A stretch of 64,000 nucleotides of DNA from Streptomyces sp. B1I3. Its GTDB lineage: Bacteria > Actinomycetota > Actinomycetes > Streptomycetales > Streptomycetaceae. Both the position numbers and the translations under genes were made by a program. This document shows positions 23,598 to 31,294 of the stretch, one piece after another (positions within the stretch are counted from its first letter, which is position 1; every line of letters begins with the position of its first letter). The stretch spans positions 6,780,501 to 6,844,500 of the forward strand of contig NZ_JAUSYD010000001.1 of the NCBI RefSeq assembly GCF_030816615.1, read 5' to 3'. The notes under the pieces were generated by a model that was given only the letters and a program-made list of their open reading frames with translations, did no database searches and had not been told where the DNA came from.

Positions 23598-23776
23598 GCA
23601 CCCGCCCGCACGTCATCGGCGAAATGGCCCGTGGCGGAGCCGGCTCAGCCCGCAGACTCTCCCGCGTGCGGGCTCAGCACACCGGCCGCGATCAACGCGA
23701 ACAACACCACGCCCAGGATCACGCGGTAGATGACGAACGGCATGAAGCTCTTGGTCGTGATGAACTTCATGAACCA
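23598..23776. repeat. 179-bp direct repeat, left copy (flank of integrated element)
   Basis: Identical base for base, by eye, to 30375-30553 at an offset of 6777. The copy contains the last 132 bp of uppP plus 47 bp of downstream sequence. It marks the left edge of the element; removing 23599-30375 would join the lipase gene to uppP in a normal spacer. Confidence 0.93.
23645..23776 (-). pseudogene. Displaced 3' end of uppP
   Basis: Forty-four codons including the stop, identical to the end of the intact uppP at 30422-30553, but cut off at 23776 where TraSA-like sequence begins. It is a by-product of element integration. Confidence 0.9.
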
Positions 23777-24561: not shown

Positions 24562-24738
24562 ATGGCTCTCAACTTGAAGTACAGCGGCGAAGGCAAAGAC
24601 ATGACGTTCGAGGAGCTCGAGGCGTTCGTGAAGCAAGCCAAGGCGAGCGGCGTCCAGAACGACCGCAACGTCTACGCCGAACTCAGCACCAGCGGCAAAA
24701 TCAAGGAGCTCAGCGTCAAGGTCGACGACGGCGACTAG
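24562..24738 (+). CDS. Small element protein, 58 residues
   Basis: MALNLKYSGEGKDMTFEELEAF begins a charged alpha/beta peptide that ends LSVKVDDGD. No family is recognised; similar short acidic proteins follow tra/spd genes in integrative elements. An AGGATG stretch precedes the ATG. Its TAG stop lies inside the CTAG target of IS element 1, so the insertion left the coding sequence whole. Confidence 0.65.
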   Translation: MALNLKYSGEGKDMTFEELEAFVKQAKASGVQNDRNVYAELSTSGKIKELSVKVDDGD

Positions 24739-24799
24739 GGCCTGTATCGAAAGTGCGCTGCTGGGCAGTTGAGTCCTGTGGGTCGGTACAGTCGCGTGC

Positions 24800-25159
24800 A
24801 TGCTGAAGCCAGTGCTGCGTGTAGTCGAAGCGGGCGGTCGTACCGTGGACGATCCGACCGAGGAGGCTCTGCACGACCTGCTGTCTGAGATGAACCTGTC
24901 GCACCGGTTTGTGATCCTGGAAAGACTCGATTTGGAGCCTGTGGATCAGCACTACATTCAGGTGTGCCTGAACGATGACCTCAGCTACCAGGTCGAGTAC
25001 CGCGAAGGCAGTGCAGACAAGCACTACCAGGCCCACGTTCCAAGACTCCATGAAGTGTTCGGCCCGGAAGAGTCGACCGCCAAGGTGATGATGGACTGGG
25101 CTCACGATCGGCAGGGATGGCGGGAGGCGTTGCCGTGGACCTCCATGCCTTTTCAGTGA
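24800..25159 (+). CDS. Cargo protein of insertion sequence 1, unknown function
   Basis: A 119-residue soluble protein, acidic in its second half: RVVEAGGRTVDDPTEEALHDLLSEMN, HRFVILERLD, then YQVEYREGSADKHYQAH and WREALPW. The alternation of short strands and helices resembles small immunity-type or Imm1-like proteins, but this is only an impression. It lies inside the IS and converges on the transposase with a 4-bp gap between stops. The ribosome site is weak. It is not needed for transposition as the family is known. Confidence 0.7.
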   Translation: MLKPVLRVVEAGGRTVDDPTEEALHDLLSEMNLSHRFVILERLDLEPVDQHYIQVCLNDDLSYQVEYREGSADKHYQAHVPRLHEVFGPEESTAKVMMDWAHDRQGWREALPWTSMPFQ

Positions 25160-25163
25160 AGGA

Positions 25164-26039
25164 TTACAGCCACTCGTTGATCGCCGCGACCAGGACTGTC
25201 GCCTCGTAGCGGACGGCGAGCTTGTCGTAGCGCGTGGCAACCGCGCGGTTCCTCTTGAGGCGGTTGATCCCGCACTCGACCGCATGGCGCTCGCGGTAGT
25301 CGGCTGGGTAGAAGCGCGGCGGCCGGCCGCCGCGGGAACCGAGCCTTCGGCGGTTGCGCGCCTGGTCGGCCTTGTCAGGGATGGTGCAGCAAATCCCGCG
25401 GCGACGCAGGTAGGCGCGGTTCCTGCGGGAGGCGTACGCCTTGTCCGCGCGGACCCGATCGGGGCGGACGCGTGGCCGGCCCGGCCCGATGCGGGGCACA
25501 CGCACTTTCTCCAGTACGGGTTCGAACTGCGGCGAGTCGCCGCGCTGCCCGGCCGTGATGACGATCGACAGGGGCTTCTGGCCCTGCTCGACGGCCAGGT
25601 GCAGCTTGGTGGTGAACCCGCCGCGCGAGCGCCCAAGTCCGTGATCACCAGGTTCGCTGAGGACACCGCCCGGCGGTTCCTTCTGTAGATCACCCTGCTT
25701 GCGGGCCCCGGCCGCATGCTGATGGGCACGGCAGACTGTGGAGTCGACGCTCAAGTCCCACGTGATCGCACCTTCCGCGTCGGCCAGGGACTGCAGCCGG
25801 GTAAGTATCCGGTGCCAGGTGCCGTGCCGCTGCCATCGGCGGAACAGGTCGTAGATCCGGCCCCACGGTCCCTACTCGACGGGCACGTCCCGCCACGGCA
25901 CACCGGCCCGGACCCTAAACCGTATGCCGCCGATCACCCGCCGCCGGGACCAGACAGATGGCCGGCCTGCCTTCGTGCCCTTCGGCAGCAACGGTTCCAG
26001 CATCGCCCACTGCTCGTCCGTGAGATCTCCCCGACCCAT
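25164..26039 (-). pseudogene. IS5-family transposase with an in-frame TAG
   Basis: One frame of 292 codons from MGRGDLTDEQWAMLEPLLP to AAINEWL. The DDE residues are visible: Asp in LSVDST, Asp in ADKAY and Glu in [12 protein letters not shown]. Codon 56 (bases 25874-25872) is TAG inside VPVE[12 protein letters not shown], where the family has Tyr, so a single-base change broke it. The DNA-binding N-terminus would be cut from the catalytic core. Unlike many relatives it needs no programmed frameshift. Confidence 0.88.
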
Positions 26040-26200
26040 GAACCGTGATCATCCACAGCCCAAGATCCACTTTCGACACACGGCCTAGCCGACATCACCG
26101 CACAGCGTGGCCCGCGACCTAACGGTCGGGGGGCCTTTGTCGTGGTTACAGCCCGTGCGATCCACCGCGGCCCCGCCAACTGCGCCGTCACCGCACAACA

Positions 26201-26228
26201 AGGCCCCGGACCGTCTGGTCCGGGGCCT
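26201..26228. terminator. Bidirectional terminator
   Basis: AGGCCCCGGACC (26201-26212) and its exact complement at 26217-26228 with a 4-base loop. It lies just past the stop of the small zinc-ribbon gene and ends the minus-strand unit. Confidence 0.85.
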
Positions 26229-26253
26229 CTGTGTTCCCTGGGCTGAGGGACCT

Positions 26254-26379
26254 CTAGTCGTCGAGGTCGGGCTCTGTCTGCCCTCGCTTCTTCGCGCAGT
26301 CCGGGCAGTAGTTCTTGCTCCAGCTCCCGGTGTGGCGCGTCCCGCACTCCTTGCACTTCAGCTCGTTCGGCCTGACCAT
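26254..26379 (-). CDS. 41-residue zinc-ribbon protein
   Basis: MVRPNELKCKECGTRH starts a peptide with two C-x-x-C knuckles (CKEC and CPDC, Cys 9, 12, 25, 28), spaced as in a zinc ribbon. It is basic in the middle and acidic at the end. A clear GGAGGA site stands five bases before the ATG and a terminator follows, so it is a real gene despite its size. It probably binds DNA, RNA or a protein partner of the element. Confidence 0.8.
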   Translation of the reverse strand: MVRPNELKCKECGTRHTGSWSKNYCPDCAKKRGQTEPDLDD

Positions 26380-26410
26380 GATTCCTCCGGATTTGTGCTG
26401 GCGATGGCGA

Positions 26411-26698
26411 CTACTCCGGCGACTTCTCCAGAATTTCGCCGGTCTCCTTCAGGAACTCCAGCCATGGCCCGGACTCGGCGTCACCGCCGCGCTGATAGGC
26501 GGCCGCCCACTCCTGCATGATCCACATGCGGAAGTCGTCCCAGATGTGCCCATTGCCGGGCGGCAGGAGAATGCTCGCCTCCAGGAGCCGGTCATAAAGG
26601 TCGGACTTGACCTCGACGAACGGCCGGCCGCCGTCAATGGCTCGCTGGTAGTTGCCGATCTCTTCGAACAGCACTTTCAACCGGTCCATGGCTGTCAC
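26411..26698 (-). CDS. Hypothetical element protein, 95 residues
   Basis: MDRLKVLFEEIGNYQRAIDGG opens a helical, acidic protein with several Trp near the C-terminus (IWDDFRMWIMQEWAAAY, GPWLEFLKE). There is no signal or motif. GTG 26698 has a GGGGG site at good distance; ATG 26689 is an alternative. It lies upstream of the zinc-ribbon gene in the same direction and is likely co-transcribed with it. No function can be proposed. Confidence 0.7.
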   Translation of the reverse strand: MTAMDRLKVLFEEIGNYQRAIDGGRPFVEVKSDLYDRLLEASILLPPGNGHIWDDFRMWIMQEWAAAYQRGGDAESGPWLEFLKETGEILEKSPE

Positions 26699-26724
26699 CA
26701 GTTACCCCCTGTTGTGACTGAACC

Positions 26725-27000
26725 TCACCGTATGGGGGGAGCGGCCCGCGGGAGCGAGGTGTGTAACGGGGGATCGCCGCGCTCGGCACGGAATCGTCTA
26801 CGCCGAAGCGGTCTGGCCGGTAGACGGGATGGCGCAGTCCGGGGCGAGGTGGGCCGTAGCACCGCCCGTGCCACCCACCCGCGGCCGACGGGGTTCGCCG
26901 ACGGGTTCGTCGGGGTCGCCCCCGACCGCCGGCACAGGTCGTCCCACACCTGCTGGCACTCCGCCCGGCTCACGCCCCGCACCGTGTAACTCACGCCCAT
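26725..27000 (-). CDS. Doubtful small gene in the element
   Basis: The first half, MGVSYTVRGVSRAECQQVWDDLCRRSG, looks like real protein, but the second half (RLPARPLRRRRFRAERG) is Arg/Pro-rich as in shadow frames. It may be a gene with a frameshifted end. The ATG at 27000 was chosen because the protein-like part begins there. Confidence 0.3.
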   Translation of the reverse strand: MGVSYTVRGVSRAECQQVWDDLCRRSGATPTNPSANPVGRGWVARAVLRPTSPRTAPSRLPARPLRRRRFRAERGDPPLHTSLPRAAPPIR

Positions 27001-27139
27001 GACAGCAGCATGACGGGGATAGCAGGCCACCGGGCCGGAACGGTCACGAAGGACACGGATTCACCCACTGCTGCATGCACTCTGGCGACGCACCCCGTCT
27101 CGGATTACGCTCAACGTCCAACTCGGGGGAGGGGGCAAC

Positions 27140-27328
27140 ATGGCGAAAAAGAAGCCCAAGAAGCCTAAAGGCTGGTGGGTGGAACAGCGGATCGCGAAAG
27201 CGGAGCTTGCCAAGCGTGTGATCGCCGCGCAGGCGCGGCGGGAGAGGGTCTACGGCCGCGTCGGTGTAACGCCACCACGCCAGTCTTCGAACTCTGTGTA
27301 CGCCATGTCGAGCGGGGCTTACAGGTGA
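27140..27328 (+). CDS. Small basic element protein, 62 residues
   Basis: MAKKKPKKPKGWWVEQRIAK begins a very basic peptide with a helical middle (ELAKRVIAAQARRERVYG). The strong GGGGGAGGGGGC site before the ATG and the perfect terminator 29 bp after the stop support a real transcript. It could bind nucleic acid. It runs opposite to the neighbouring small genes and towards IS element 2. Confidence 0.7.
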   Translation: MAKKKPKKPKGWWVEQRIAKAELAKRVIAAQARRERVYGRVGVTPPRQSSNSVYAMSSGAYR

Positions 27329-27356
27329 GCGATCTTGCCCTTGGCCGATGTGTGAC

Positions 27357-27389
27357 GAAGCCCCCGCACCATCCCGGTGCGGGGGCTTC
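27357..27389. terminator. Bidirectional terminator
   Basis: GAAGCCCCCGCACC (27357-27370) with its exact complement at 27376-27389 and a 5-base loop. It serves both the small basic gene (plus) and the DUF6221 gene ending at 27400 (minus). Confidence 0.88.
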
Positions 27390-27578
27390 GCCGTGGGCGC
27401 TACGGCTTCCACTCGGTCCGGTAGCCGGGGTGGTCGGCGTACACGGCGGCTAGGTCTTGTCTGATAAATGATCACCCGTGGGCTCAGAATGCCGGATGCT
27501 TGTTGACGGAGGGTGGCCACCGTCACGGGGCATCACGTCTCCCCCCGTGGCGGGCCATGAAGACGAGGAGTGTCAGCG

Positions 27579-28151
27579 GTGTTGGAGACCTACCTGTCCT
27601 GGTACCGCGAGGGCCGGATGGACGAGTCCGAGTTCCGCACGGTCACCGACAACTTGGCCCAGTCCGGGCTGACCGTCGAGCACCCGATGCTGGGCTGCGG
27701 GATGCTGTTGGACGTCGTAGGGGAACAGGTGAAGCTGCCTGTCGGGCCCATTCTGGAGCTTGTTGGCCTGTCGGTCGGGCCGCTCTGCATGCAGTTCTGG
27801 CTGTCGGCAGACACGGACGTGGTGTGCGATGTCAGGTACGTGGCGCCGGACACCCAGGTCCTCACCTTCGTGCTCGGCGGGTTGACCGAGATCGAGCGTG
27901 AGCAGGCCACTAATGCCGTTCAGCGGCTGATCCAACGAGAGTTGGACAGGACTGTCGCGCTACTCGTCGATCTGGGCGGCGAAACAGCGGACGAGGACGA
28001 TGACGCGCTGGTCCTGTATGGCCGACTGCCGATGGGCCCGCGCCCGGACCGAGTGCACTTCCGGACGGACCGGCTCAGCATCATCCCGGCTGTTCTTGCT
28101 GGAGCAGAGGTGACGGATCTCGGCAACGGGCTGAGTACAGTCCGCTGGTAA
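27579..28151 (+). CDS. Cargo protein of insertion sequence 2, unknown function
   Basis: A 190-residue protein beginning VLETYLSWYREGRMDESEF. The N-terminal half is hydrophobic and Gly/Val-rich without a clear signal peptide; the second half contains LTEIEREQATNAVQRLIQRELDRTVALLVDL and ends in alternating strands. No family is recognised. The GTG at 27579 sits eight bases after GAGGAG, better than GTG 27570. Its TAA stop is 3 bp from the transposase stop on the other strand, the same arrangement as in insertion sequence 1, though the two cargo proteins look unrelated. Confidence 0.75.
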   Translation: MLETYLSWYREGRMDESEFRTVTDNLAQSGLTVEHPMLGCGMLLDVVGEQVKLPVGPILELVGLSVGPLCMQFWLSADTDVVCDVRYVAPDTQVLTFVLGGLTEIEREQATNAVQRLIQRELDRTVALLVDLGGETADEDDDALVLYGRLPMGPRPDRVHFRTDRLSIIPAVLAGAEVTDLGNGLSTVRW

Positions 28152-28154
28152 TGA

Positions 28155-29041
28155 TCATCGGGCAGGTTCGCGGAGCCAGAGGACGAGCGCTGCGAGGTGG
28201 AGTCCAGCCCGGTATCGGGCGGCGAGTTTGTCGAACCGTGTCGCGACGGCGCGGAACTGCTTGAGTCGGCTGAAGCAGCGTTCGACCACGTTGCAAGCTT
28301 TGTAGAGCTCGCGGTCGAAGGCTGGCGGCCTGCCACCGGCCCGCTCGCGCCGAACACGGTTGGCCTTCTGGTCGACCCTTTCCGGAATTACCGCTCGGAT
28401 GCCCCGGCGACGCAGGGTCTGGCGGATCACCCGTGACGAGTACGCCTTGTCGGCGATGACCGCGTCGGGCCTGCGGCGCGGCCGCCCGACGCCGGTCCTG
28501 GGTACTCGCAGCGCGTCCAGGACCGCATCGAAGGCGGTGGAGTCGTTGACGTTGCCCGGCGTGACGAGGATGGCCAGAGGCAGGCCCCGGCCGTCGCACG
28601 CCAGGTGAACCTTGGTGGTCAGCCCGCCGCGGGACCGGCCGAGCGCCTGGTCAGCCGCCGCGCGTGCCGGATCTTCTAGTTCATCCCCCGCCGGTGCCCC
28701 TTTTTGCGGGCGCCGGCGGCGTGCTGGTGAGCACGGTTAACCGTGGAGTCGACCGACACGGCCCATTCCACCGCTCCGATTGAGTCGTCGTGGACCTGGA
28801 CCTCCTCGAGTAGACGGGCCCAGGTCCCGTCCACCTCCCAGCGGGCGAACCTCTCATAGATCGTCTGCCACGGCCCGAAGCGTTCTGGCAGGTCACGCCA
28901 CGGAGCACCCGTGCGCAATCGCCACAGCACCCCGTTGATCACCTGTCGGTGATTCCGCCACGGACGACCCCGCCCGTCAACACCTGGCAGCAGCGGCGAT
29001 ATCCGCTCCCACGCCGCATCCGTCAGCTCTCCGCGACCCAT
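28155..29041 (-). CDS. IS5-family transposase, two overlapping frames (programmed -1 frameshift)
   Basis: OrfA (29041 to 28676, 121 residues) starts MGRGELTDAAWERISPLLPG and contains the first Asp (SVDSTV); it ends soon after GARKKGH. OrfB, in the -1 frame, supplies ALGRSRGGLTTKVHLA, the second Asp (IADKAYSS) and Glu in VVERCFSRLKQFRAVATR, ending REPAR. The switch fits slippage on the A run at 28705-28701 (codons AAA AAG). Both halves look intact, so this IS may still be active. Confidence 0.88.
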
Positions 29042-29435
29042 CACAAGATCAATTATCAGACAGGTCCTAGGTCGCGGAGGTCGGGGCACGGCGCCGTGCG
29101 TTCACAGTGGTCGCAGACCTGCATGCCCCAGTGCGACCGTTCGCAGGTGCGGCAGCCGCCAATTGAGTGCGGCGCATGCCGGGCGACGAGCTGTCGCTTC
29201 GCCTCGACCTCGCGCAGGGCGCGGGCCGGGTCGTGGCGGGCGATGTGCTCGGCCTCAGCAATCCCGAGCTCCCGAGCGATGAGGAACCGTCGGTTGGCGA
29301 CGACCTTCGCGAGGGGTTCCGCGTCCGGGTGCGCAACCCAATCCCGCTGCGGGCTGCCCATCGTCTCGTCCGTCGCCAGCGCCGCCCGCTCATCTTCATC
29401 GAGACGGGCCCGAAGAAAGCCCACTAGGTCGGCGA

Positions 29436-30374: not shown

Positions 30375-30553
30375 GCACCCGCCCGCACGTCATCGGCGAA
30401 ATGGCCCGTGGCGGAGCCGGCTCAGCCCGCAGACTCTCCCGCGTGCGGGCTCAGCACACCGGCCGCGATCAACGCGAACAACACCACGCCCAGGATCACG
30501 CGGTAGATGACGAACGGCATGAAGCTCTTGGTCGTGATGAACTTCATGAACCA
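30375..30553. repeat. 179-bp direct repeat, right copy (3' end of uppP)
   Basis: Identical to 23598-23776. It covers the final 44 codons of uppP and 47 bp of downstream DNA. This copy belongs to the intact gene, so the gene was kept whole on integration. Confidence 0.93.
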
Positions 30554-31294
30554 TGCGATGACCGCGTATCCCACCGCGAAGGCGATGACCGTCGCGAAGA
30601 TCGTCGGCCCCCAGGAGACGTGTCCCTCGCCCGCGTCCTTCAGCTCGAACACGCCCGAGGCCAGCACCGCCGGTACCGCCAGCAGGAACGAGTAACGCGC
30701 CGCCGCCTCACGGGTGTAGCCCATCAGGAGGCCACCACTGATCGTGGCGCCCGAGCGCGAGACGCCGGGGATCAGCGCCATCGCCTGACAGAAGCCGAAG
30801 ATCAGGCCGTCCCTGACGCCCAGCTCCTGGAGGGACTTGCGCTCCCTGATCGCCCGGTGCTTGCCGCCGGTCTCGTCGCGCGCCGCGAGACGGTCCGCGA
30901 CACCCAGGACGATGCCCATGCCGATCAACGTGGTCGCGATCAGGCGCAGATCACGGAACGGCCCTTCGATCTGGTCCTTGAACGTCACACCGAGCACGCC
31001 GATCGGAATCGAGCCGATGATGACCAGCCAACCCATCTTGGCGTCGTGGTCGCCGCGCATCGAGGCATTGGTCAGCGACCGGAACCACGCCGAGACGATC
31101 CGGGCGATGTCCTTGCGGAAGTAGATGAGGACCGCCGCCTCCGTACCGATCTGGGTGATGGCGGTGAACGCCGCACCCGGGTCGTGCCAGCCCGCGAACG
31201 CCGCGGTCAGTCGCAGATGCGCGCTGGAGGAGATCGGCAGGAACTCGGTCAGTCCCTGAACGAGTCCCAGGACGAATGATTCGAACCAGCTCAT
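30422..31294 (-). CDS. uppP: Undecaprenyl-diphosphatase
   Basis: A 290-residue membrane enzyme (BacA type) that recycles undecaprenyl diphosphate for wall synthesis; extra copies give bacitracin resistance. Motif 1 is GLVQGLTEFLPISSSAHL at the N-terminus, and motif 2 (PGVSRSGATISGGLL) near residue 175 carries the catalytic Ser/Arg. About eight membrane segments. Its 3' end doubles as the right border of the integrated element. It follows the TVP38-type gene in the same direction, separated by a terminator. Confidence 0.96.
   Translation of the reverse strand: MSWFESFVLGLVQGLTEFLPISSSAHLRLTAAFAGWHDPGAAFTAITQIGTEAAVLIYFRKDIARIVSAWFRSLTNASMRGDHDAKMGWLVIIGSIPIGVLGVTFKDQIEGPFRDLRLIATTLIGMGIVLGVADRLAARDETGGKHRAIRERKSLQELGVRDGLIFGFCQAMALIPGVSRSGATISGGLLMGYTREAAARYSFLLAVPAVLASGVFELKDAGEGHVSWGPTIFATVIAFAVGYAVIAWFMKFITTKSFMPFVIYRVILGVVLFALIAAGVLSPHAGESAG

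Follow-up and report, generated by a model that had tools for sequence, protein, structure and literature searches.

Two insertion sequences, E1 and E2, lie in the window (the whole 64-kb stretch analysed here) of a host genome of 7.52 Mb in a single contig, and both are very probably transporter IS: single-transposase IS5-family elements that insert at CTAG, hold their one passenger gene in a slot bounded by the transposase stop and the outer 3′ terminal repeat, and would take up a new passenger by capturing an outer 3′ end. The two represent different situations, an always-filled lineage (E1) and a normally empty one (E2), as judged from their relatives.

Two IS5-family elements with cargo in the window

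The original prediction placed two CTAG-targeting elements at 24739–29066. Both are real, but that span left out the outer CTAGs, which belong to the elements (24735–26088 and 27450–29070). E1 comprises:

24735..26088, no strand assigned: element E1, 1354 bp, CTAG at both ends, slot to the left of the transposase (based on inverted ends and complete copies elsewhere)
24735..24755, + strand: outer 3′ terminal repeat, cargo side, CTAGGGCCTGTATCGAAAGTG
24800..25159, + strand: passenger gene, 119 aa (dN/dS 0.20; chromosomal homologues)
25164..26039, − strand: IS5-family transposase, interrupted by TAG at 25872–25874 (intact relative, L018)
26068..26088, − strand: 5′ terminal repeat, transposase side, CTAGGCCGTGTGTCGAAAGTG as read on the − strand

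E2 comprises:

27450..29070, no strand assigned: element E2, 1621 bp, CTAG at both ends (based on inverted ends and complete copies on two plasmids)
27450..27473, + strand: outer 3′ terminal repeat, cargo side (from end comparison and empty relatives)
27570..28151, + strand: passenger gene, 193 aa (open reading frame)
28150..28157, − strand: inner-repeat remnant TGATCATT, the transposase stop and next bases (from comparison with empty copies)
28155..29041, − strand: IS5-family transposase in two frames (NF033580 match; one CDS in the plasmid homologue)
29047..29070, − strand: 5′ terminal repeat, transposase side (from end comparison)

CTAG, predicted to flank both IS, was seen at all four ends, and its scarcity in the 64-kb window (15 observed vs ~75 expected) means that this is not due to chance; its presence on both sides of an element is compatible with duplication of either TA or CTAG. 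The inverted ends are imperfect, with 79% identity over 29 nt in E1 (I1) and 88% over 24 nt in E2 (I3), and terminal inverted repeats with CTAG at both ends are common to E1, E2 and most of the 60 relatives described below. Also as predicted, a gene other than the transposase lies opposite and tail-to-tail with it in both elements, with stop-to-stop gaps of 4 bp in E1 (cargo stop 25157–25159, transposase stop 25164–25166) and 3 bp in E2 (28149–28151 and 28155–28157). Of the cargo sizes originally given, 119 residues holds for E1, but the second, put at 190, is 193 aa, or 191 aa with the start used in a plasmid homologue.

Both transposases match the IS5-family model NCBIfam NF033580 (cut-off 110), at 146.9 bits for the E1 transposase part and 136 bits for the N-terminal part of that of E2. 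Codon 56 of the E1 gene is an in-frame TAG (25872–25874) where intact copies have Tyr. The E2 gene is split across two frames at an A5G4 run and, since its plasmid homologue is annotated as a single 887-nt CDS, the split probably reflects programmed frameshifting near 28700. At 1354 and 1621 bp, E1 and E2 fall outside the usual description of the IS427 group (< ~1 kb, transposase only), which the empty relatives of E2 do fit.

As to the setting, a perfect 179-bp direct repeat (window 23598–23776 and 30375–30553) encloses 6.8 kb containing E1 and E2, probably an integrated island; its second copy overlaps a uppP-like gene (ORF 30422–31294, − strand) in the 3′ part of that gene. The host genome has a diverged relative of this island at 486800–490800 (L275), ~70% identical in pieces and without E1/E2, whose divergence is too high for a clean E1/E2 junction. 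Empty E1/E2 sites were sought in relatives and not found, because both elements sit in a strain-specific island.

Passengers move together with their elements

A congeneric genome (L278) has full-length E1 at a different site (91% identity over 1–1354), and S. anulatus and S. microflavus have it on plasmids (88%), which makes three further unrelated sites. Full-length E2 (1–1621, 96.7%) occurs on two Streptomyces plasmids whose right flank is common to both, and these hence count as one further site; the remaining E2 copies in the sampled genomes are incomplete, the complete ones coming from plasmids. At all these loci the element ends coincide, and the 500 bp of window flank on each side lack similarity to them (E2 compared with L282). 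Moreover, two loaded E1 relatives in the host genome itself, at 1.07 and 7.43 Mb, match each other at 100% identity over 1494 bp. At another locus (L020), a loaded element lies between two CTAGs at the stop codon of a gene that looks like disA, and a single CTAG is present there in about half of the 19 relatives inspected.

A cargo that was an ordinary host gene, with an IS on one side and the end of a neighbouring IS on the other in a unit that is itself immobile, would agree with the empty relatives of E2, in which a repeat lies 24–25 bp past the transposase stop, and with the chromosomal homologues of the E1 cargo that have no transposase. Complete units with cargo and exact ends at unrelated sites, and two identical loaded copies in one genome, make such trapping highly improbable, and we rejected it on the strength of the former. 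Cargo-less copies with nearby repeats, which the original prediction had named as the finding that would speak for a trapped host gene, do exist for the E2 type, but E2 with its cargo is complete on plasmids and no gene is trapped there. The comparisons thus indicate that the cargo belongs to the mobile unit and that the passenger moves with the element.

Two observations concern other element surroundings. A long flanking frame with high GC3 terminates at the TAG of an end CTAG in 16 of 60 E1-lineage (group-A) elements (a raw count over 98 CTAG ends), and insertion at CTAG would preserve such a stop. In L017:206–4597, three CTAG-bounded elements are arranged end to end, with adjacent ones sharing one CTAG.

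The slot of the E1 lineage is filled and variable

Elements were sampled from 80 loci of named genomes, the host genome and the window, the 80 being the best of 347 ranked by transposase similarity with cargo not considered. Both ends were recovered for 60 elements, whose transposases are ~70–100% identical to the intact reference. The slot beside the transposase stop is filled in all 60 of these E1-type elements (354–2877 bp; best 80 of 347 loci plus host genome and window), with ~30 unrelated types of cargo gene. These cluster into eight groups of at least three loci, seven pairs and ~20 singles, a few of the latter being doubtful reading frames, and their Pfam names include GNAT, Glyoxalase_6, alpha/beta hydrolases, LANC_like, DUF5713, DUF1877 and ankyrin, as well as mycothiol-S-transferase, AAA_33, MarR and MFS. 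In host-genome copies that are 84–89% identical over the transposase arm, homology ends at the E1 cargo stop and other genes lie beyond: one for a 183-aa protein with a zinc-ribbon-like end, one for a DUF4288 protein, and a zinc-binding dehydrogenase together with a TetR regulator. The class of cargo-bearing IS with a variable slot that had been proposed is thus largely borne out by ~30 gene types in 60 extracted elements and by the recurrence of whole units.

Nine additional elements came from plasmids, eight of them having the 3′ end and a filled slot. Each unit has one transposase, with no two IS copies flanking the cargo. A search for terminal repeats independent of the transposase yielded five facing pairs 1.2–3.2 kb apart (read off the table) and none at the length of an empty element, apart from one pair within 66 bp (G125:C19:76159–76224), composed of two facing E1-lineage terminal repeats and possibly a miniature element or a scar. 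Empty slots in the E1 lineage were seen only in Micromonospora and Dactylosporangium relatives (70–77% identity) and in a single diverged element next to L031.

The original prediction proposed a fixed slot and described both cargo genes as tail-to-tail with the transposase. The place beside the transposase stop stands, with variable content, but the orientation is only biased, being convergent (tail-to-tail) in 23 of 30 cargo types by hand count (binomial p = 0.005). Tail-to-tail arrangement as a rule was rejected, the other 7 types being co-directional with the transposase.

E2 belongs to a normally empty lineage

The nearest relatives of the E2 transposase (~80–90%) are mostly empty, with the 3′ repeat 24–25 bp past the stop, and hence E2 represents a sporadic loading event. 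E2 retains TGATCATT of the inner 3′ repeat, after which the cargo starts, and a complete repeat lies beyond the cargo. A single genome was also found to have one IS, with the same terminal repeats, in both loaded and empty form: L022:1021–2858 is 1838 bp long and its 220-aa gene is co-directional with the transposase, and L023:1367–2376 is 1010 bp and empty.

How a new passenger may be acquired

In the mechanism we propose, the transposase, its action being that expected for its family, would work on both outer repeats and mobilise the unit as a whole, in the case of E1 probably through an intact relative's enzyme working in trans. Decay or bypass of the former 3′ end could let a repeat farther out be used instead, often one belonging to another copy of the element or to a nearby related IS; the intervening DNA would become the new slot, older cargo next to the transposase would decay, and a passenger whose product helps the host would probably be kept.

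That capture takes place in this way, by exchange of the outer 3′ end, is suggested by remnants of former cargo. The slots of L019 and L087 start next to the transposase with pieces of the 183-aa cargo (72 and 260 bp, respectively), followed by a new gene. In L070, the E1 cargo has a deletion and its own outer end is destroyed, with another end ~0.7 kb farther out, and in L088 a truncated GNAT cargo precedes pieces of MarR and MFS. A decayed inner repeat is retained in L031, L032 and L054. Over all elements, the excess of terminal-repeat similarity beside the transposase stop is small (mean 10.5 vs 9.5 of 20 positions), and capture of the outer end is hence still something that we infer. LanC is bracketed by 177-bp partial direct repeats from an earlier cargo of 139 aa (L090 vs L066), as would be expected if two copies had formerly flanked it; both LanC and L063 look like insertions in mid-slot, which argues against outer-end replacement in these cases.

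Slot exchange could instead depend mostly on homologous recombination among resident copies, with cassettes swapped through the shared transposase and end sequences and no new outer ends involved. Between elements that differ in cargo, left-arm identity reaches 91–93%, as high as or higher than in many pairs with the same cargo, the E1 cargo occurs on at least two supported transposase lineages, and direct repeats of old cargo surround LanC, all of which would fit; yet swapping alone explains neither the entry of a wholly new gene nor old-cargo remnants with a new 3′ end outside them, and as the main route we consider it rather unlikely. That the E1 cargo is found on at least two supported transposase lineages does suggest that recombination between copies contributes to cargo exchange, alongside outer-end capture.

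Cargo is under constraint and of mixed function

Mean Nei–Gojobori dN/dS ranges from 0.18 to 0.40 in eleven cargo families and is 0.20 for the E1 cargo (five element-borne copies); the cargo families lack internal stops, whereas some transposases of the same elements have them. The cargo is thus under constraint at the sequence level. Chromosomal homologues of the E1 cargo (56–76% identity), without a transposase, are present in many genomes of the genus, which makes the host chromosome its likely source.

The cargos of E1 and E2 matched no Pfam, NCBIfam or PADLOC family, and profile searches of cargos against PDB and Pfam returned nothing credible. The structure predicted for the E1 cargo (pLDDT 69) had no fold match, and that for the E2 cargo (pLDDT 46) was unusable. 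The immunity or regulatory roles suggested originally did not find support, the window cargos matching no family and the catalogue being mixed, with many small-molecule enzymes and small uncharacterised proteins.

A cargo might also serve the element rather than the host, whether by regulation, by assisting transposition, or as an addiction or immunity gene that could be lost only at a cost. In most elements the transposase is met by a short convergent gene, the catalogue includes several small uncharacterised proteins, and the 127-aa cargo of the third of the three chained elements (L017 3271–4597) has a sub-threshold match to Imm1. Against this, the cargos are too diverse (they include enzymes, transporters and regulators), no toxin partner was seen inside the elements nor, by eye, was a neighbouring toxin gene recognised for cargo homologues outside IS, and no defence model matched the small cargos; we therefore regard a role in service of the element as improbable. 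A host-benefit function of the cargos is our guess from the accompanying genes, and passengers are probably kept because their products help the host.

Relation to known systems and significance

Transporter IS (tIS) have been reported from two families, IS1 and IS1595, in PMC8496243 (citing Siguier et al. 2009), PMC3129680 and PMC9330008. E1 and E2 resemble them in IS organisation, with one transposase, terminal repeats and passengers unrelated to transposition that lie inside the repeats, and comparison of whole units at unrelated sites indicates that the passenger moves with the element; they differ in their IS5 transposase and CTAG target and, in the E1 lineage, in being always filled, with ~30 gene types. 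Members of the IS427 group of the IS5 family are 832–865 bp long in Paracoccus (PMC3281130). Our elements share with this group the IS5-family transposase, the two overlapping frames of some members and the short terminal repeats, but the loaded ones are 1.27–3.8 kb and only empty relatives have the normal length. As in composite transposons, a host gene is moved between two terminal repeats, and the LanC elements resemble collapsed two-copy remains, but an E1/E2-type unit has only one transposase and one pair of ends.

Integron gene cassettes fill one place with interchangeable single accessory genes of mixed function. The E1-lineage slot would be similar in outcome only: here each gene has its own DDE transposase and ends, with one gene or operon per element and no array. 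Tentatively, and with the balance slightly against it, Streptomyces and neighbouring actinomycetes may have in this IS5-type lineage an integron-like reservoir, no longer found empty in the genus, that holds one exchangeable selected gene replaced via new outer 3′ repeats. Elements of this type would in effect be one-gene shuttles. We found no description of cargo-bearing IS5-family elements in Streptomyces in the open-access literature searched, and an earlier description elsewhere is possible; the kind is already known as tIS, and its occurrence in IS5-family elements is a variant for which no description was found.

Annotation pipelines give the cargo as a stand-alone protein and so miss its link to an IS. 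The layered slots are natural fossils for direct tests of the transition from IS to gene carrier. If our interpretation is true, very small IS would be able to serve as routine carriers of single accessory genes in a natural-product genus, with cargo types (acetyltransferase, glyoxalase-like, hydrolase, transporter, kinase) of the sort able to modify or export small molecules.
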